This document shows positions 7,224 through 23,140 of a stretch of DNA of 64,000 nt, piece by piece. A program made the translations under genes and the position numbers. Position 1 is the stretch's first letter, and each line of letters opens with the position of its first letter. The notes beneath the pieces were generated by a model. The model made no database searches, was not told the DNA's origin, and saw only the letters and a program-made list of their open reading frames with translations. Source of the DNA: Candidatus Flavonifractor intestinipullorum (GTDB taxonomy: Bacteria > Bacillota > Clostridia > Oscillospirales > Oscillospiraceae); contig DWYC01000088.1 in NCBI GenBank assembly GCA_019118925.1, positions 1 to 64,000 of the forward strand. The letters run 5' to 3'.

Positions 7224-7420
7224 GATTCTTTATATCACTTTGAAAAGCGGAGGGGAGCTGTATAAAAATTTTTAAAAAACTTAGAAAAGATTAACATCCG
7301 TGCTTGCCGAATCGGTTGGATAGTGCTATAATAACGGACACCAGGTGGGAGAAAGCCGGTACCTTGTACGAATTGTCCAAAAAAGGTCGCCTTAAAAAAT
7401 AGGTTCGGTTTTTTTGAAAA

Positions 7421-7454: not shown

Positions 7455-7489
7455 TATCCACAGAAGCCAAACCCCGGAATGAAATGATG

Positions 7490-7575
7490 GAAAAGAGCAA
7501 ACCATGCGAAAGCATGGGACGCAAAGCCAGAAGGCTACCGCGGAGAGGGAGAGCCTCCCCCCGCCACGCTCGTTC
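7490..7575 (+). ncRNA. Probable cyclic di-GMP-I (GEMM-I) riboswitch aptamer; boundaries approximate
   Basis: GAGCAAACCATGCGAAAGCATGGGACGCAAAGCC matches the 5' half of GEMM-I (P2 with GAAA tetraloop, then GGGACGCAAAGCC). The 3' half matches the consensus less clearly. Confidence 0.65.
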
Positions 7576-7635
7576 GGCCGCCCAGGACAGGAACCTTCCG
7601 ACCGTCTGGACGCGCGTTACTCTTTTGGCCCGCAG

Positions 7636-7670
7636 CGCCGCAGACGAGGAGACCGTCTGCGGCGTCTTTT
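7636..7670 (+). terminator. Intrinsic terminator of the riboswitch expression platform
   Basis: Perfect 11-bp stem CGCCGCAGACG/CGTCTGCGGCG with TCTTTT tail. GACCGTCTG at 7600-7608 duplicates 7651-7659, so it can compete for the 5' arm as an antiterminator. Confidence 0.75.
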
Positions 7671-7712
7671 ATGCCCGGCGCTTCTGAATCTCCGGAAAAT
7701 GAGGTGGGTCCC

Positions 7713-8285
7713 TTGCCTAAGGCAGTTCGAATCATTTGGAATACCGTGACGACGCTGCTGGCCGTCGCGGTGGTGGCGGCGGCGGTGCTGCTGGTGGGGG
7801 TGCGCCTGGTGGGGCTGACGCCCTACGTGGTCCTCAGCGGCAGTATGGAGCCCACGTATCCCACGGGCTCGCTGATCTACGTGCGGGACGTGGAGCCCAC
7901 GGAGGTGGAGGTGGGGGACCCCATCACCTTTGTCCTCGATGAGGAGCTGAACGTGGCCACCCACCGGGTGGTGGAGGTCAACGAGACCGACGGCTGGTTC
8001 CGCACCAAGGGCGACGCCAACGACGCCCCGGACGGCAGCCCCGTGCTCTTCGAAAATCTGATCGGGGAGCCGGTGTTCTGTATCCCCAAGCTGGGGTATC
8101 TCACCAATTTCCTCACCAATCCCCCCGGGATGTACCTGGGGTGGAGCGCGGTGGTAATCCTGCTGATCCTCCTCTTCGCGCCGGACCTCCTCAAGTGGGC
8201 GGACAAGCAGGACCAGAAGCCCCGGGGCAAACGCGAGGCCCACGGGACATCCGATGACGGGGGAACGCCGAAAGGCAGTAAATAA
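7713..8285 (+). CDS. sipW: SipW-type signal peptidase I
   Basis: VVLSGSMEPTYPTGSLIYVRDV and THRVVEVNETDGWFRTKGDANDAPD; probable TTG start with GAGGTGGG upstream. Confidence 0.85.
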   Translation: MPKAVRIIWNTVTTLLAVAVVAAAVLLVGVRLVGLTPYVVLSGSMEPTYPTGSLIYVRDVEPTEVEVGDPITFVLDEELNVATHRVVEVNETDGWFRTKGDANDAPDGSPVLFENLIGEPVFCIPKLGYLTNFLTNPPGMYLGWSAVVILLILLFAPDLLKWADKQDQKPRGKREAHGTSDDGGTPKGSK

Positions 8286-8371
8286 ATTCAACCCGGTACC
8301 CAAGCGAACCCCAAGCAGACCCAGCAAAGACCCAAAAACACGTGTGCAATGAAAGAAAGGAGCAAAACACA

Positions 8372-8980
8372 ATGAAAATGAAGAAGATCGTCGCGACCGG
8401 TTCCGCTCTGGCCCTGACCGCCGCCGTCGCCGTGGGCGGCACCCTGGCTTACCTGCAGGATGCGTCCGGCGATGTCGTCAACACCTTTACCTGGGACGCG
8501 AAGAATGCCATCCAGCTGACCCTGGACGAGCATAAGTATCTGCCGGAGAGCAATACGCTTGATATGGAAGCCGATCCTGTTCAGGCGAATAGTAACTATT
8601 CCATCATTCCTGGCGCTACTGCTCCCAAGGATCCCACTCTGCATTTGGACACTGAGACCGCGAGCTACCTGTACGTTGTGATTGACAACAAGCTGGGCGA
8701 GGACGTGGTTGCGATCACTGGCCTTGGCCAGAATTGGAATAGGGTGGAGAGCGCTACTCTGCCTGCTGGTGTGGCGGGTACTCTGTATTACTACACTGGC
8801 ACTGTGACCAACGGCGATTATCCTGTGTTCACCGGCGTCGAGTATGCGGATGACTTGGAGTATGACGAAGAGACCAGTGTGACCGGCACCATTACGGTGA
8901 AGGGCTTTGCTGTTCAGGCTTCCGCTGGTGGGGACGCTGTGGCCGCTTGGAATGCCACCTTCGGTGCTCCTCAGCCCTAA
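8372..8980 (+). CDS. TasA/camelysin-like SipW-dependent secreted protein
   Basis: MKMKKIVATGSALALTAAVAVGGTLAYLQDASGDVVNTFTW: SipW-type signal peptide followed by NTF motif. Confidence 0.75.
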   Translation: MKMKKIVATGSALALTAAVAVGGTLAYLQDASGDVVNTFTWDAKNAIQLTLDEHKYLPESNTLDMEADPVQANSNYSIIPGATAPKDPTLHLDTETASYLYVVIDNKLGEDVVAITGLGQNWNRVESATLPAGVAGTLYYYTGTVTNGDYPVFTGVEYADDLEYDEETSVTGTITVKGFAVQASAGGDAVAAWNATFGAPQP

Positions 8981-9031
8981 TCCTTCCTACATAACAACAA
9001 CGATTTTCTCATGAGAAAGGGAGCTTGACTT

Positions 9032-9637
9032 ATGAATATGAAGAAGAAACTGGTCGCCGGCGGTCTGGTCGCCGCTCTGGCCGCTACCGCCATCGGCGGC
9101 GCTACCCTGGCTTACTTCACCGATGAAGAAAAGGCCGTGAATACCTTCAGCGTGGGCAACGTGGACATCACTCTGACCGAGTCCGAGTGGGTTGAGAGCG
9201 ACGCCAAGCTCATCCCCGGCCGGGTTATCGACAAGAACCCCACCATCACCCTGGAGGCGGGCAGCGAGGATGCCTACACCTTCATGAAGGTGCAGCTTTC
9301 TCAGGACTTCGTGGACCTCCTGACCGATTATGCTACTGCTGCGAGCATCACCAACCCCATGGACGTGGTGGAGGACTGGTTCGTCAGCGAGGTCGGCCCC
9401 AAGGTCATGTATGTGGACGTGGACGCGGGCTATGCCATCCTGGGTGTGATGAGCCCCAAGTCGGCGGGCGACTCCGTCACCTACTTTGACCAGGTTACCG
9501 TGCCCAAGGGCGTGACTCAGGAGATGATCAGCGCTGAGGACGAGTACACCATCACCGTCACCGGCTATGCCATCCAGGCTGAGGGCTTTGACACCCGCGA
9601 GGAGGCGTTTGCCGCTCTCTTCCCTGAGCTGGCCTAA
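9032..9637 (+). CDS. TasA/camelysin-like SipW-dependent secreted protein
   Basis: MNMKKKLVAGGLVAALAATAIGGATLAYFTDEEKAVNTFSVGNVDITLTESEW; good match to the TasA family start. Confidence 0.85.
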   Translation: MNMKKKLVAGGLVAALAATAIGGATLAYFTDEEKAVNTFSVGNVDITLTESEWVESDAKLIPGRVIDKNPTITLEAGSEDAYTFMKVQLSQDFVDLLTDYATAASITNPMDVVEDWFVSEVGPKVMYVDVDAGYAILGVMSPKSAGDSVTYFDQVTVPKGVTQEMISAEDEYTITVTGYAIQAEGFDTREEAFAALFPELA

Positions 9638-9669
9638 TCCAATACTTAAGTACCGGACTTGAATGAAAG

Positions 9670-9700
9670 GGGCGGCGGGGCGTTCCCCGCCCCGCCGCCC
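9670..9700 (+). other. Very GC-rich intercistronic hairpin
   Basis: GGGCGGCGGGGCG-TTC-CCCGCCCCGCCGCCC-like stem between the second and third TasA-like genes. Confidence 0.6.
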
Positions 9701-9814
9701 AAAGGTTTTCCCGGCAAGACTGCCTGTCGGGATTCCCTGCCAAGCGGACGGCCCTCTCCCCAGGGCGGCCCGCTATGACCAAATCTCACGCAGAGAGGAA
9801 AGGCGGTAGACGAC

Positions 9815-10399
9815 ATGAAGAAACGACTTGCGGCCGGCGGCCTTGCGCTGTCGCTGCTGGCGATCCTGGGCATCGGTACCGCGGCCTACTTCGTTGCAGA
9901 TGGGCGGGCGGTGAACGAGATCACCACCGGCACCATCGATCTGACGTTGACCCAGAGCATCAACGGCGCGGTGATCGATACCACCGCACTGGAGGAGATC
10001 ATGCCCGGCGAGACGGTGAACCAGACGGCCGACATCGAGAACGCGGGCAACCATCCCTTCTGGACCCGGGCGCGGTATGAGGTGACCATCACCGCTGCCG
10101 ACGGTACCACGGAGCTGCCCGCCGCGCTGGAGGACGGCACGCCGGTCATCACCTTCGGCGCGGGGGAGGGCTGGCTGGACGGCGGCGACGGCTGGTATTA
10201 CTGCCCGGACATCGTCCCCGTGGGCGAGAGCGTCACTCCCTTCCGCGAGGTGACCTTCGCCGCCGGGGCCGGCAACGAATATCAGGGCTGCGACATTTCC
10301 ATCGCCGTGGACGCCCAGGCGGTCCAGAGCGATAACAATACCCCCGACAGCGGCAGCGTTCTGGAGGTCAAGGGCTGGCCCGAGACCGAGACACCCTAA
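9815..10399 (+). CDS. TasA/camelysin-like secreted protein
   Basis: MKKRLAAGGLALSLLAILGIGTAAYFVADGRAVNEITTGTIDLTLTQ. Confidence 0.75.
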   Translation: MKKRLAAGGLALSLLAILGIGTAAYFVADGRAVNEITTGTIDLTLTQSINGAVIDTTALEEIMPGETVNQTADIENAGNHPFWTRARYEVTITAADGTTELPAALEDGTPVITFGAGEGWLDGGDGWYYCPDIVPVGESVTPFREVTFAAGAGNEYQGCDISIAVDAQAVQSDNNTPDSGSVLEVKGWPETETP

Positions 10400-10420
10400 A
10401 GGAAAGAGGTGTGATGCAGT

Positions 10421-13400
10421 ATGTATAATTGGAAAAAGCGCCTGCTGGCGGCGGCGCTGGCCGGTTGCATGGCCATGGGGCTGATGACGCCCGCGCTGGC
10501 TGTGGAAGTGGATGCGTCCACCTCTCCCACCGAGACGGTGGAGGAGACCACCGCGCCGGTGACGGACGAGACCACGGCCCCCACCGACGAGGTGGACCCC
10601 GGCTTTAGCGTGGACCCCAGCCAGGAGCCCTCTGAGGAGCCCAGCGAGAGCGTGGAGCCCTCGGCGGAGCCTTCCGAAGAGCCCAGCGAGAGCGTGGAGC
10701 CCTCGGCGGAGCCTTCCGAGGAGCCCAGCGAGAGCGTAGAGCCCTCGGCGGAGCCTTCCGAGGAGCCCGGCGAGAGCCCGGAGCCCAGCGCCGAGCCTTC
10801 GGCCGAGCCCTCCCTGCCCCCCGAGGTGGAGATCCCCGAGGAGAGCATCCCCCTGGACCCCGGCTTTGAGGTGCCCGACTACGGCAGCATGACCACCGAG
10901 GAGCTCTATGAGGCGCTGCAGTCCTTCGGCGGCGACGCCGCCCTGGAAGAGGCGTTCTATGCCCTCCTGACCGAGGAGCAGATCGCCGCCCTGGAGGCGT
11001 ACATTCAGGAGCAGGAGGAGCAGGCCCTGGAGGCGGAGTACCCCGCCATCCCCGCCCAGTCCGCCACCGATGAGGCCAACGGCGTCACGGTGACGGTGTC
11101 GGCGCCGGCCGGCGCGTTCCCGGCGGGGACCGAGCTGACCATTGAGCTCGTTCAGACCCCCAACCCCCTGACTCGCATGTTCACCCAGGACCAGAAGGCC
11201 ATGGTGGACGAGGCTGTGGCCGAAGCCTTGGCGGAAGAGCCCGCCGAGCCGCAGCAGTCGGTGGCCTTCGACATCACCTTCCGGCTCGACGGCGCGGAGG
11301 TGCAGCCCCGGGAGGGCTACACCGTCAGCGTGACCTTCGATGTGGAGAGCGCCAGCGCCCTTCTGGACGGCGCCGACCAGCTCCAGGTGTTCCACGTGGA
11401 CGGCGACGCCGTGGCCGAGGCCGTGGGCGAGGCCGTCGCGGTGGACCCCGAGGCCGACACCCAGCAGATCGCCGTGGAGGCCGAGCAGTTCTCCATCTAT
11501 GCCCTGACTGCGGCGGTCACACCGAGAGCAAGCTATGAGGTCAATTTGGCTGATCTAAATGGCATGACGTTCCAGGTCGGCGATGTAATTGAGGTAACTG
11601 CCCAAGAAGAGAATCGATATCAGTGGAACGTCACTTCTGGTAGAGACTGCGTAACAGTTCAATCTTTGCCGGATACAAACACCGGTGGATGGTGGCCTAC
11701 CTACTATAAACATTGGCAGATCACCATGAATGAGCCGGGAAGTGTAACCGTTCAGTACGGATATACTGACTGGTGGGGGTGGCATGGTACTCAAGCCACG
11801 TTTACGATTGAGGAACCGGTCCCCGCCGGTCCTCTGACCATTGAAGATCAGATCAACCGGAACGGCAGCCTGATTCCGGTGCTGAACCGTGACGAAGCGG
11901 GCGTCCCGGCAGATGCTGAAGTCACCTACCGCTGGTACAGAGCGGAGAACAACGGCAGTGCCCCCGCATTTAAGGAGTGCGCGGAGGTGACGGGCGATGC
12001 GCTGGATACTCAGTACGCTCCTGAAAACGGCGTCAACGTAGCTGTGGACCAGGGCGGCAAGTACTGGTACTATGTGACCGCCACCTATACTACAGATGCG
12101 GGTGGTGCAGAACAGACGCTCCGCTCTGCACCCTACTGGGTGCCCTACTCCAATGAGCTGGAGAACGGTGGATTTGAGGATCCAGATACCAGTGAGTATG
12201 GCTATGGTTGGAGTGTACAGTTCAACCAGAATGAAGAGTTCCTTCTCAATCCGTCCAGTGCCGCAGATCATACCGCCCTGTGGTGGAAATCCACTGGCGA
12301 AGGATACAGCCAAACCAACGGGACCGTCCATATTGAGTATGTGGCCCCGGATAAGGGAGATCCTACGAGCGAGTTCAGCGCCAGATGGGGCGCGGGTACG
12401 CCTACAAGCCCGAACGCAACCGGCAGCGATCAGTATGCAGAGCTGAACTGCGAGGCATTTGGCGCACTCTATCAGGACGTGCTGACAGCCCCCGGTGCAG
12501 AGCTCTATTGGAGCCTGTCGCACCGCGGCCGAGAAGGCGTAGACGAAATGGCTGTGGTAATTATGCCCGCCTCTGAAGCACGGAATATTACCACACAGTC
12601 GCAGCTGGAGCAGGTACTGACTAATCCGGGAAAGTATAACGCGGCTGTGACTTATATTAAGAGCGATGCGGATGCGTGGCACTCCTACTCCAGTACGATG
12701 GACATGGCAGACAGCGAGGGGGCGTATGACCGGAACACGAATATCGCGTATAACGCCACGCCGGATATGTTCAACGCGGACGGCTCCTATAAGGGAAGCG
12801 GTGAGTATCTGACCCGGTTCTTCTTTGTCGCAGTCAACACATTCACAGGGGATCCTACGGTCGGCAACCTGATTGACGAGGTCAGCTTCTCCGACGATCT
12901 GTCCTATACCATTAACTATTATCTGGGTGATGCTTCTACTCCTGACCGGACGGAGCACGACAGTGCAGATCCCTTTACCCGGGTGACTGCGGATGTGAGT
13001 AGCTATCTGGGTGAGGGCTGGACAGTTGAGCGTACTGAGATCGACGGGGAGGATGCGAATGGCAGTTTGCAGATGCTCCTGACTGCCAGCGGGATGACAC
13101 TGAATGTGTACCTGATTCAGGGCGGCATCACGGTCGTGAAGCAAGTCGCGGGCGTGACATTGACCGGGAGCTACACGGCAAACTTTGCGCTGTACGAAGA
13201 TAATAATGGCAGCGTAGGGAGTCAGGTAGCAAAGGCAAGCGTCACCGTCAACTCGGGGACGGGCGCAGGCAGTGTAGTCTTTACGGACATGAAGGGAGAG
13301 CGGTTCATTCCCGAAATAAGTGCCACCTACTATATCTGTGAAACTTCCACATTGCCAGTGGATGGGTACAGCCTGACCTCTACGACGTATGACGGTGCGC

Positions 13401-14014
13401 CGGCCACGGACGGTTATTACCAATTTAGTGTTAATCAGAACGGCGTAGCCTCCATCACGGTGGTCAACACCTACACGGAGAAGCCCAAGTTCGGCAGCCT
13501 GACCATCATCAAGGAGGTAGCGGGTACGGACCCCATCGAGCAGAGCTTCATCTTCACGGTGACCAGCCCGGACGGCTTCTCCATGAGCGTCGTCATGAGC
13601 CCGGAGGACTTCGGCTCGGAGCGCAGCTGCAGTGTTACCATCACGAACCTCCCGGTGGGTTCGTATACCGTGACCGAGGACACCGGCTGGTCTTGGAAGT
13701 ATGAGTGTACTAGCCAATCGTCCCAAGAAGTTGAAATCAGCGCGGAAAATCTTAATCCGACGGTAGAATTTACTAACAAGGATAAGGGGAGCTCGTGGCT
13801 GGGCGGCACGGACATTGTGGAGAACGTGTTTGACAAAGTGAGTAGCGATTCCGGTGCGCAGGTGACCCCTGCGGCCAACACGGACGCCAACGTGACGCCG
13901 CTGCCCACGGCCCCCAAGGACCCCGAGGAGGACCAGGGCGACAAGAACAACAACACCGAACCCGACCCCGGCGAGGAGGCCATGACCCAGGAGGGAGGCG
14001 AGAGCAATGTTTGA
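10421..14014 (+). CDS. Large secreted surface protein with EPS(E/A)-repeat linker and C-terminal Cna-B/SpaA-like (prealbumin-like) domains
   Basis: Classical signal peptide ending TPALA, EEPSESVEPSAEPS repeats, and domains such as GSLTIIKEVAGTDPIEQSFIFTVTS...LPVGSYTVTEDTGW. No LPxTG seen. Confidence 0.75.
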   Translation: MYNWKKRLLAAALAGCMAMGLMTPALAVEVDASTSPTETVEETTAPVTDETTAPTDEVDPGFSVDPSQEPSEEPSESVEPSAEPSEEPSESVEPSAEPSEEPSESVEPSAEPSEEPGESPEPSAEPSAEPSLPPEVEIPEESIPLDPGFEVPDYGSMTTEELYEALQSFGGDAALEEAFYALLTEEQIAALEAYIQEQEEQALEAEYPAIPAQSATDEANGVTVTVSAPAGAFPAGTELTIELVQTPNPLTRMFTQDQKAMVDEAVAEALAEEPAEPQQSVAFDITFRLDGAEVQPREGYTVSVTFDVESASALLDGADQLQVFHVDGDAVAEAVGEAVAVDPEADTQQIAVEAEQFSIYALTAAVTPRASYEVNLADLNGMTFQVGDVIEVTAQEENRYQWNVTSGRDCVTVQSLPDTNTGGWWPTYYKHWQITMNEPGSVTVQYGYTDWWGWHGTQATFTIEEPVPAGPLTIEDQINRNGSLIPVLNRDEAGVPADAEVTYRWYRAENNGSAPAFKECAEVTGDALDTQYAPENGVNVAVDQGGKYWYYVTATYTTDAGGAEQTLRSAPYWVPYSNELENGGFEDPDTSEYGYGWSVQFNQNEEFLLNPSSAADHTALWWKSTGEGYSQTNGTVHIEYVAPDKGDPTSEFSARWGAGTPTSPNATGSDQYAELNCEAFGALYQDVLTAPGAELYWSLSHRGREGVDEMAVVIMPASEARNITTQSQLEQVLTNPGKYNAAVTYIKSDADAWHSYSSTMDMADSEGAYDRNTNIAYNATPDMFNADGSYKGSGEYLTRFFFVAVNTFTGDPTVGNLIDEVSFSDDLSYTINYYLGDASTPDRTEHDSADPFTRVTADVSSYLGEGWTVERTEIDGEDANGSLQMLLTASGMTLNVYLIQGGITVVKQVAGVTLTGSYTANFALYEDNNGSVGSQVAKASVTVNSGTGAGSVVFTDMKGERFIPEISATYYICETSTLPVDGYSLTSTTYDGAPATDGYYQFSVNQNGVASITVVNTYTEKPKFGSLTIIKEVAGTDPIEQSFIFTVTSPDGFSMSVVMSPEDFGSERSCSVTITNLPVGSYTVTEDTGWSWKYECTSQSSQEVEISAENLNPTVEFTNKDKGSSWLGGTDIVENVFDKVSSDSGAQVTPAANTDANVTPLPTAPKDPEEDQGDKNNNTEPDPGEEAMTQEGGESNV
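10634..10801 (+). repeat. 42-bp in-frame tandem repeat (3 near-perfect plus 1 degenerate unit)
   Basis: GAGGAGCCCAGCGAGAGCGTGGAGCCCTCGGCGGAGCCTTCC units at 10634, 10676, 10718, and a degenerate one at 10760 (EEPSESVEPSAEPS). Confidence 0.9.
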
Positions 14015-14627
14015 CCGGAAGAAATATGAAGGCAAGCGTGCCCTGCGCCGCTGGCCCAAGTGGCTGCCCGCGGCGGCGGCGGTAGCGCTGATCGCCACGC
14101 TGGCGGTGGGCGGAACCCTGGCCTGGCTGTCGGCCTACACCCAACCGGTGAAGAACACCTTCGTCATGGGCACGGTTCCCCCGCAGGTAACGGAGAGCTT
14201 TAATCAGAAAGTTAAAGAAGACGTCAAAGTTACCAACCATGGCAACATCCCCGCGTACATCCGCGTGGCGCTGGTCTGCACCTGGCAGGATGACAGCAGA
14301 AATGTAGTAGGCGAGCCCGCCAGCCTGGACGACCTTATCATCGACTGGGGAACAGAAGGCGGCTCTGAAACTGCTGAAGCTCCCGGAAACGGTTGGATCA
14401 AAATCGGTGACTACTACTACTACACCCAGCCGGTAGCGGCGGGAGATACTACGTTTAACCTGATTGACTCGGCGAGGGTCAAAGATGATGCGGCCACCAA
14501 TGGCTATCACATGAATCTCCAGGTCATCGCCGACTCCATCCAGGCGAACCCCACCAGCGTGGTCCAAAGCCAGTGGGGCGTTATGGTAGATGAGAACGGT
14601 GCAATTACCGGCTCTACTAACAACTAA
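14007..14627 (+). CDS. TasA/camelysin-like SipW-dependent secreted protein
   Basis: ALRRWPKWLPAAAAVALIATLAVGGTLAWLSAYTQPVKNTFVMGTV; ATG overlaps upstream stop (ATGTTTGA). Confidence 0.75.
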   Translation: MFDRKKYEGKRALRRWPKWLPAAAAVALIATLAVGGTLAWLSAYTQPVKNTFVMGTVPPQVTESFNQKVKEDVKVTNHGNIPAYIRVALVCTWQDDSRNVVGEPASLDDLIIDWGTEGGSETAEAPGNGWIKIGDYYYYTQPVAAGDTTFNLIDSARVKDDAATNGYHMNLQVIADSIQANPTSVVQSQWGVMVDENGAITGSTNN

Positions 14628-14641
14628 GGAGGTGACTGACG

Positions 14642-16150
14642 ATGAAAAAACATACCCTTCGCGCACTGATGGCGGGAGGCGTGGCCGCGGCTCTGCTGTG
14701 CGGCATCGTCGCGGTCACCGCCCTGGCGGACGGCAACGTCCCCACCGTGACCTATGATCACGCCAACCGGCAGTTCGTGTTTACCAACTTCAATGACGAC
14801 TACATCACCGACGGCGACGGGGCGAAGTACCCCAACCTGTTTCAGGCCATGGACGGCGGCGACGGCAACGGCCTGATGCCCGGCGACACGGTCACTCAGG
14901 AAATCCACGTCACCACCAGCGGCATGGGCTCCGGCTCGGTGATCCTGACCCTGCGGGCGGAGCCCACCGCCGACGCCGACGCCAACGCCGACTATGAAAA
15001 GCTCCTCTCCGCCACCGGTGAGGACGAGGACGGCGACGGCCAGCCCGACGGCGTGACCCTCACCGTCCGGGAGAAGAACGGCGCCACCATGACCGACATG
15101 AACGGCAACGTGGTGGAGGAGATCTCCGGCTCCCTGGGCGAGGGCGTCACTCTGGGCCGCCTCTACCGGGGCGACAGCCTGGATCTGATGGTCACGCTGA
15201 ACATCCCCGTGACCGTAGGCAATGAGCTCCAGGGCCTGGAGGCCCAGGTGGGCTGGGTCTTTACCGCCGACTACCGCTCCGGCGGCGGCGGGACCGATCC
15301 GGATCCCGATCCCAGCAATTCCGGCGGCGGCGGGACGGACATCCCCGAGGAGAGCACGCCTCTGGGTCCGCTGCCCGATCTGGAGCGGGGCGACCACTTT
15401 GCCTACATCGTGGGCCGTGACGACGGTCTGGTCCACCCCGAGGCCGAGATCACCCGCGCCGAGGTGGGCACCATCTTCTTCCGCCTGCTGACCGAGGAGT
15501 CCCGGAACCAGTTCTGGGCCACCACCAACCCCTACACCGACGTCCCCTCGGACGCCTGGTTCAACAAGGCCATCTCCACCCTGACCAACGCGGGTATCAT
15601 CTACGGCCGCGGCGCGGGCATCTTTGACCCCGACGCCTCCATCACCCGTGCGGAGTTTGCCGCCATGGCCGTCCGGTTCTTCGGCGGCGGCTACGAGGGC
15701 GAGGACCTGTTCAGTGACATCGACGGCCACTGGGCCCAGGATGCCATCAACCAGGCCGCCAACCAGGGTATCGTCAGCGGCTATCCCGACGGCACCTTCC
15801 GGCCCGACAACAACATCACCCGTTCGGAGGCCATCTCCATCATCAACCGGGTGCTGGACCGCCGGCCCGAGAAGGACCACCTGCTGGCCGAGGAGGATAT
15901 GATCACCTGGCCCGACAACATGGACACCTCCACCTGGTACTACGCGGACATCCAGGAGGCCACCAACTCCCACGACTACGATCCCTCGGAGGAGCGGGAC
16001 GAGGAAGGCAACCAGTACGAGATCTGGACCGGTTCGCTGCCCGTGCGTGACTGGATCACGCTGGAGCGCGCCTGGACCAACTCCAACGAGTCCGTCAACC
16101 CCGGTGACGTCATGTTCGTCACCTCCCGGGAGAGCGCGGTTATCCGTTAA
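14642..16150 (+). CDS. S-layer homology (SLH) domain protein with TasA-like N-terminal region
   Basis: SLH motifs AEITRAEVGTIFFRLL, YTDVPSDAWFNKAISTLTNAGIIYGRGAGIFDPDASITRAEFAAM, FSDIDGHWAQDAINQAANQGIVSGYPDGTFRPDNNITRSEA. Confidence 0.85.
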   Translation: MKKHTLRALMAGGVAAALLCGIVAVTALADGNVPTVTYDHANRQFVFTNFNDDYITDGDGAKYPNLFQAMDGGDGNGLMPGDTVTQEIHVTTSGMGSGSVILTLRAEPTADADANADYEKLLSATGEDEDGDGQPDGVTLTVREKNGATMTDMNGNVVEEISGSLGEGVTLGRLYRGDSLDLMVTLNIPVTVGNELQGLEAQVGWVFTADYRSGGGGTDPDPDPSNSGGGGTDIPEESTPLGPLPDLERGDHFAYIVGRDDGLVHPEAEITRAEVGTIFFRLLTEESRNQFWATTNPYTDVPSDAWFNKAISTLTNAGIIYGRGAGIFDPDASITRAEFAAMAVRFFGGGYEGEDLFSDIDGHWAQDAINQAANQGIVSGYPDGTFRPDNNITRSEAISIINRVLDRRPEKDHLLAEEDMITWPDNMDTSTWYYADIQEATNSHDYDPSEERDEEGNQYEIWTGSLPVRDWITLERAWTNSNESVNPGDVMFVTSRESAVIR

Positions 16151-22544: not shown

Positions 22545-23140
22545 TGGTAGATCCTCCTTTATGTTGATGATACCCAAATGGGGCCTGCGGGCCCCGGAGT
22601 TTCCATACAAAGAAATTGCCATGGACCGTCCCACGCTGAGGAACATCCATGGCAGTATATGGGCGGGATAAGCCCATAAAAGCAGTCAATGATAACGCTC
22701 CACACATGTGGCAGTCTGGGGGATATTCTCCCACAGCCCAGGCAGCCGGCCCCGTGGGCGGCGGGACGGCCCTTCGGCGGCCAAGCCTTTCCCCAGCAGG
22801 GCCGCCCGCCCCGAAGCCTGGATACTCATCTTTGCCGCGCCTCTACCATTGATTCCAATCTTATGGTTTTGGAAACAATCAGATATATATTGGAATTCTA
22901 CCAAATCTGCGGCCTGGTGTCAATATATCTGGCGATATATTTCCCGCATTCCGGGCCATTTTGCACGCTGCGGCGCAACTTGCACAGCGGTGCGGCCCAT
23001 GGTAGAATAAAGTTCCCAGTTTATTACGGACGGAAGGAGCGGTGCGCCATGGACAGCGAGCAGCGCAAAAAGAGAGCCGTGGCCGTTGGCCCGGCGGGAG
23101 AAAGGAGGGATGAGACAACAATTTGAAAGGAGCGTTTGCG

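Follow-up and report, generated by a model that had tools for sequence, protein, structure and literature searches.

Within a 64,000-nucleotide stretch of contig DWYC01000088.1 of Candidatus Flavonifractor intestinipullorum (hereafter the window), we analysed a cluster of seven genes, sipW, T1, T2, T3, BIG, T4 and X, which encode a signal peptidase, four TasA-like proteins, a long secreted protein and a protein with S-layer homology (SLH) repeats (Table 1). All seven lie on the + strand, as in the initial annotation of this DNA, which had read them as a candidate S-layer-anchored fibre system; this general interpretation is supported by our results. The arrangement sipW-T1/T2-T3-BIG-T4-X is one conserved operon type, and we infer, with moderate confidence, that its products build a chaperone-free TasA-type surface fibre fixed to the cell. 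The source genome is a bin of 2.25 Mb with 81% completeness, in which a scan found camelysin and SipW-substrate matches solely at this sipW/T/X locus.

Table 1. Features of the sipW-X region (positions in the window)
Position	Strand	Feature	Evidence
7304..7332	+	promoter-like site TTGCCG-17-TATAAT, TG ahead of second hexamer	pattern match only; number not above shuffles
7486..7585	+	c-di-GMP-I riboswitch aptamer	60.6 bits (Rfam gathering 35); ends 128 bases 5' of sipW
7635..7665	+	terminator-like hairpin, 12 pairs; probable riboswitch expression platform	hairpin scan, folding
7713..8285	+	sipW, SipW-type signal peptidase, TTG start	TIGR02228 105 bits (cut-off 51.85); ribosome site
8372..8980	+	T1, TasA-like subunit, putative shaft	T1/T2-profile hhalign to T3, T4; model
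9032..9637	+	T2, TasA-like subunit, putative shaft	PF12389 6e-11; TIGR04088 above cut-off
9815..10399	+	T3, TasA-like subunit, putative base-side adaptor adjoining X	PF12389 1.1e-6; hhalign with X N-domain; fusions to X
10421..14014	+	BIG, 1197 aa, secreted, putative adhesin: Pro/Glu/Ser linker, uncharacterised middle, C-terminal SpaA + WSWRY...WLGG	
13448..13912	+	BIG conserved C-terminal domain, 155 aa (SpaA domain + tail)	alignment, 47 relatives
14007..14627	+	T4, TasA/BsaA-like subunit, putative BIG adaptor	TIGR04090 1e-10; co-occurrence with BIG signature
14642..15295	+	X signal peptide + TasA-like N-domain	hhalign with T3 96.9%; model pLDDT 88
15380..16150	+	X SLH repeats, three [ILV]TR[AS]E (TRAE-type) motifs, conserved C-terminal tail; putative wall anchor	PF00395 115 bits

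The composition of the operon was determined for 48 loci with at least 9 kb of sequence upstream of X. SipW was encoded in 40 of these, T1/T2 in 43, T3 in 42 and T4 in 33, while the signature of BIG was present in 33, and the order sipW-T1/T2-T3-BIG-T4-X was repeated across genera. X itself was identified in 8 of 150 genomes of the family (search with a single sequence), in 73 of 394 genomes and 54 of 168 genera of the order at E 0.001, with about 40 strong places, and, at E 1e-6, in 26 of 391 genomes of the class and 19 of 299 of the phylum. A scan of named genomes, with an alignment of four X sequences as the query, produced 45 X loci. Among them were those of the cultured [Clostridium] viride DSM 6836 (L098, with the SLH form of X) and Pseudoflavonifractor phocaeensis An858 (L097, with the sortase form), and that of Collinsella stercoris. 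The genes, on whose joint conservation the initial annotation had staked its model, are co-conserved across an order. Such a conserved order nearly refutes the idea that X is an unrelated S-layer protein placed next to the operon by chance. SLH proteins are admittedly common (one lies beside the operon in locus L014), but the N-terminal domain of X recurs after the same genes with or without SLH repeats, and it is related to T3, with which it is fused in one genus; we regard a chance association as extremely improbable.

A second layout, with X directly after T3, was observed in loci L104, L110, L122, L128, L134, L138, L142, L153, L158, L161 and L168. These lack BIG and T4 and contain many T1/2-like genes (11 in L158), some of which encode proteins of 600-900 aa. 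The locus of C. stercoris (L123, Actinomycetota) comprises the whole sipW-T1/2-T3-BIG-T4-X set, with a QTGD-type X on a long tree branch, and a contig labelled Paludibacteraceae (L100, Bacteroidota) carries a Clostridia-type X and was probably mis-binned.

The product of sipW exceeds the cut-off of the archaeal/SipW-type signal peptidase model (Table 1), which confirms the dedicated peptidase predicted earlier. We placed its start at TTG 7713, since this codon is preceded by a ribosome site, GAGGTGGG, whereas the alternative ATG at 7671 is located inside the tail of a hairpin. The four small proteins had been credited with SipW-type signals and NTF(S/T) starts; the signals (GGTLAY-x-TD...NTF, recognised in T1 and T3 by alignment) were recovered, whereas T3 has NEITTG in place of NTF. 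The camelysin/TasA model PF12389 was matched above its cut-off by T2 and T3, and the SipW-substrate model TIGR04088 by T2 and T4; the match of T4 to the BsaA model (41.8 bits) is below the curated cut-off of 60. T1 gave no single-family match and was grouped with T2-T4 through profile links. The hhalign comparisons (T1/T2 with T3, 99.6%; T1/T2 with T4, 99.2%; T4 with T3, 99.2%) span 151-166 columns, which include the signal but extend far beyond it, and by these profiles T1-T4 are assigned to one family. Among PDB sequences, the T1/T2 profile found no TasA, T3 matched AbpX best, though weakly, and the best match of T4, a flagellin, was dismissed because its alignment starts in the hydrophobic signal region.

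All four T proteins have kept an N-terminal segment past the SipW site, and in 53 T1/T2 proteins the distance from this site to strand 1 has a median of 18 residues. In the predicted structure of T1 (53 sequences; predicted local distance difference test (pLDDT) score 88.6), residues 1-16 are unstructured and the first strand is found at residue 22. A Foldseek search with this model ranked the AbpA pilus 7UEG second and the TasA fibre 8AUR third (E 0.002-0.005). In a nearly closed genome of the same family (G125:C1), at least 12 scattered SipW-type signal matches were present besides its T/X operon, several of them in frames of 400-650 aa.

The resemblance of the N-terminal region of X to TasA, proposed in the initial annotation, was borne out by several approaches. 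With hhalign, this domain was linked to T3 over 113 columns situated entirely outside the signal (Table 1); the alignment of X with T4 was rejected, being confined to the signal. Comparison of 60 X N-domains with Pfam gave no convincing match (five weak hits to Cep192_D4 and one Fn3-like), only one of the 60 reached BsaA, weakly, in NCBIfam, and the X profile found no TasA among PDB sequences. As judged from these searches, the fibre-side domain of the presumed anchor has no family or model of its own in Pfam. The AlphaFold2 model of the domain (60 sequences; pLDDT 88.0, predicted template modelling score 0.83) had a sole Foldseek match below E 0.001, the archaeal bundling pilus AbpA (7UEG), and its two top matches in VIA were TasA structures, 5OF2 (Z 6.0) and 5OF1 (Z 5.7), with 128 residues aligned. 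Two structure methods and the profiles thus agree, with modest scores, on a predicted TasA fold for this domain; for T1, whose model also brings TasA and AbpA near the top, the structural case is weaker.

TasA polymerises through donation of residues 28-38, which enter the following subunit as a strand (PMC9674648), and the fibre is started by TapA, which acts as a donor only (PMC9674648, PMC10151520). X is TasA-like in its domain but is not a full TasA-type subunit. Its signal is not of the SipW type but an ordinary one, cleaved between TALA and D, and in X proteins a median of 2 residues separates the signal site from strand 1. Since X has no N-terminal donor extension such as that of TasA, it would accept a strand and not donate one, and it seems to form a fibre base that acts as an acceptor only, in mirror image to TapA. 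Open reading frames of 624-641 aa in which T3 and X are fused occur in three genomes of a single genus; there, one chain consists of T3, X, PQTGD, a membrane span, a SipW-type signal and T1/2 (L182 883-2766, L184 847-2772, L186 700-2574). These fusions are our reason for placing T3 beside X; the chain is perhaps cut into pieces after export.

These findings also bear on another explanation, in which the operon encodes a coat of separate surface proteins (for example of the spore or the S-layer) without any strand-exchange polymer. This would be consistent with the VIA matches of the T1 beta-sandwich model to many folds that do not polymerise. On the other side stand the N-terminal segment retained by T1-T4, which TasA requires for fibres (PMC9674648), the dedicated SipW, the fibre proteins heading the structure matches of the X N-domain, and the apparent control by cyclic di-GMP (c-di-GMP; see below), which suits a surface-attached, vegetative role. 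Such a coat appears to us quite improbable.

The SLH repeats of X had been proposed to anchor the fibre to the wall. This proposal is supported, with the amendment that SLH is a minority anchor form, most relatives being of the sortase type: X ends with SLH repeats in the window and in L012, L014 (identical to L098), L015 and L091-L096, whereas in nearly all other loci its C-terminus consists of a P(Q/K)TGD motif, or one very similar, followed by a membrane span and a Lys/Arg tail. This exchange of anchors on the same N-domain provides independent support for an anchoring role of X. The SLH ligand, a pyruvylated wall polymer, is made by the enzyme CsaB. A CsaB above cut-off is encoded in the window genome (G000:C81), as it is in 9 of 10 SLH-type genomes versus 7 of 34 others (Fisher p 1.3e-4, uncorrected for kinship). 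In the X tree, the SLH rows are located in one supported branch of ten, which also holds the sortase-type L013. The presence of a sortase failed to separate the anchor types, as 43 of 44 genomes contain one; a sortase gene lies directly 3' of X in several sortase-type loci, and the single sortase match of the window genome is on a separate contig (C21).

The presence of such an anchor has to be weighed against a further explanation, according to which the products form a loose, mostly released BsaA-like matrix, with X as a wall-bound starter or minor link and BIG as a separate matrix adhesin. There are precedents: most of the polymerised BsaA is recovered from the medium, and its formation takes place without BsaB or BsaC (PMC7395162), T4 resembles BsaA, and CapP of Bacillus cereus has a wall-retained C-domain, yet is a polymerisation helper (PMC13082335). 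A standard wall-anchor protein ending nearly every operon would nevertheless be odd for a shed matrix, and X is without the free N-terminal segment needed for a TapA-style fibre start. We consider a released matrix unlikely.

The 1197-aa protein BIG contains the Pro/Glu/Ser linker described initially (a repeat with a 42-nucleotide unit), whereas of the SpaA-like domains proposed only one (residues 1025-1120) exceeds the Pfam cut-off. Sequence searches found no relative of solved structure for its middle region. A C-terminal domain, YTVTE..WSWRY....WL.G.....N.F, is common to 47 aligned proteins, and the parts that precede it differ among the relatives of BIG (VWA, List-Bact repeats, MucBP), a pattern that would suit an adhesin exchanged on a constant docking piece. 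BIG, initially seen as a long stalk or tip protein, is better read as a putative adhesin of variable composition that would dock through its conserved C-terminal domain. T4 and the BIG signature (WSWRY...WL.G) occur in the same loci, both being present in 33 and neither in 15 of the 48; T4 was found in 33/33 loci with the signature and in 0/15 without it. This strict co-occurrence points to T4 as a putative adaptor of BIG.

A c-di-GMP-I riboswitch followed by a terminator-like hairpin, both overlooked in the initial annotation, precedes sipW (Table 1), and transcription of the operon is apparently under the control of c-di-GMP. In partial-transcript folding, the antiterminator strand was tied up without the aptamer fold and free with it, by which c-di-GMP would be an ON signal; an ON switch is tentatively considered more likely than an OFF switch. 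Three clear GGDEF proteins are encoded in the window genome. The other operon with this riboswitch 5' of sipW, L059 (G144), belongs to an SLH-type genome, and no c-di-GMP-I riboswitch was found in the SLH-type L058, L014, L093 and L096 or in about 22 sortase-type loci, some of whose leaders are short. The only other c-di-GMP-I riboswitch of the window genome (L200; G000:C26:47855-47941, - strand, 78.6 bits) is situated at the start of a long open reading frame for a secreted protein of more than 1200 aa, which runs off the fetched stretch; c-di-GMP may control this second surface protein as well.

The gap between T2 and T3 (177 nucleotides in the window; median 149 in relatives, in which it is also long) contains a strong 13-pair hairpin at 9670-9700 without a T-run. 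This hairpin possibly sets how much T1/T2 is made relative to the products of the genes that follow. We do not claim a ratio-setting terminator here, given the missing T-run and terminator-like sites in only 10 of 46 relatives, a count made without a control; in the case of bsaA, a terminator is reportedly located downstream of the gene. Elsewhere in the window, a lysine riboswitch was identified (22685-22853, - strand, 80.4 bits).

The fibre that we propose would be assembled as follows. Cleavage of the special signals of T1-T4 by SipW would expose about 18 residues at the N-terminus, and these would be donated as a strand to the following subunit, in the manner of TasA. The shaft would consist of T1 and T2, and X would take the last donor strand, probably that of T3, and tie the fibre to the wall through binding of its SLH repeats to the pyruvylated polymer. 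BIG, with T4 as an adaptor, would present a variable adhesin at the far end, and the conserved C-terminal tail of BIG might, speculatively, be the docking piece. Transcription would be controlled by the riboswitch, more likely as an ON switch.

Several observations weigh against this model. No polymer has been observed. The structural matches have modest scores (Z 6; Foldseek E about 0.001-0.005), and when the T1 model was re-aligned in VIA, other beta-sandwiches were listed (Z about 7) but TasA was not. The X tree does not reject a single clade of SLH forms, and the CsaB association carries no correction for kinship. Full-length folds of the leader keep the terminator with or without the aptamer, and the riboswitch precedes sipW in only two of the scanned operons. 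Finally, X is absent from both same-genus genomes searched, which makes the distribution of the operon patchy.

A broader proposal, to which we give somewhat less than even credence, is that these operons represent a widespread, undescribed class of pili of Gram-positive bacteria that assemble by strand exchange and have a defined base and tip. Their anchor would be an acceptor-only TasA-like protein whose wall-binding module (sortase-type or SLH) was exchanged during evolution, their variable tip adhesin would be docked by its conserved C-terminal domain via an adaptor of its own, and in some species a riboswitch would place expression under c-di-GMP. TapA is said to have been called an anchor at first and later shown to be a starter; X unites a TasA-like domain with a standard wall anchor, which makes fibre-to-cell anchoring directly testable. 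Moreover, operons of this type are frequent among Oscillospiraceae and other Clostridia. Many of these bacteria come from guts, in which surface fibres are relevant to attachment to the host and to food particles, and the riboswitch links the operon to a signal of the sessile lifestyle.

With respect to known systems, the operon is of the SipW/TasA/BsaA kind. Its additions are an anchor protein, a pair of adhesin and adaptor and, in the window, a riboswitch; none of these was found described in the literature searched. Nor did a search covering few subscription papers or preprints yield any publication about TasA fibres anchored by SLH repeats, or about these operons in Oscillospiraceae. The initial annotation had regarded the known relatives, exemplified by tapA-sipW-tasA, as much simpler. 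The closest known relative is the larger sipW-bsaABCRSD operon of Clostridium perfringens, which likewise combines a dedicated SipW, a SipW-dependent subunit and further secreted proteins (PMC7395162). Its BsaA is a polymerising, SipW-dependent subunit of pellicle filaments (PMC7395162). The bsa operon contains a two-component system and has no described wall anchor, whereas the operon studied here has four genes for TasA-like proteins, together with an SLH anchor, a long protein with a SpaA domain and a c-di-GMP riboswitch.

Like our operon, tapA-sipW-tasA of Bacillus subtilis encodes a SipW and subunits with an N-terminal donor segment and a TasA fold, the fold being a prediction in our case (PMC9674648, PMC10151520). 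The window operon additionally contains several shaft-like genes and one for an adhesin-like protein. TapA starts the fibre by donating a strand, in contrast to X, which lacks a donor segment, has a TasA-like domain of its own and carries a wall anchor. The tasA-calY/CapP system of B. cereus resembles the one proposed here in having two co-assembling TasA-like subunits, sortase independence and a wall-retained helper, but the wall-binding C-domain of CapP is disordered and not SLH, and no SpaA-domain protein is described there (PMC13082335). Archaeal bundling pili (AbpA, 7UEG; AbpX) are TasA-like, strand-complemented fibres, and 7UEG is the top Foldseek match of the X N-domain. To our knowledge, they have no anchor protein of the X kind. 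Finally, a shaft, a VWA/SpaA adhesin-like protein and a wall-fixed base are also typical of sortase-assembled Gram-positive pili. The window operon is not such a system as judged by subunit sorting signals and an operon sortase: none of the window proteins T1-T4, BIG and X has a sorting-type tail, no pilus sortase lies in the operon, and the wall anchor is carried by X only.

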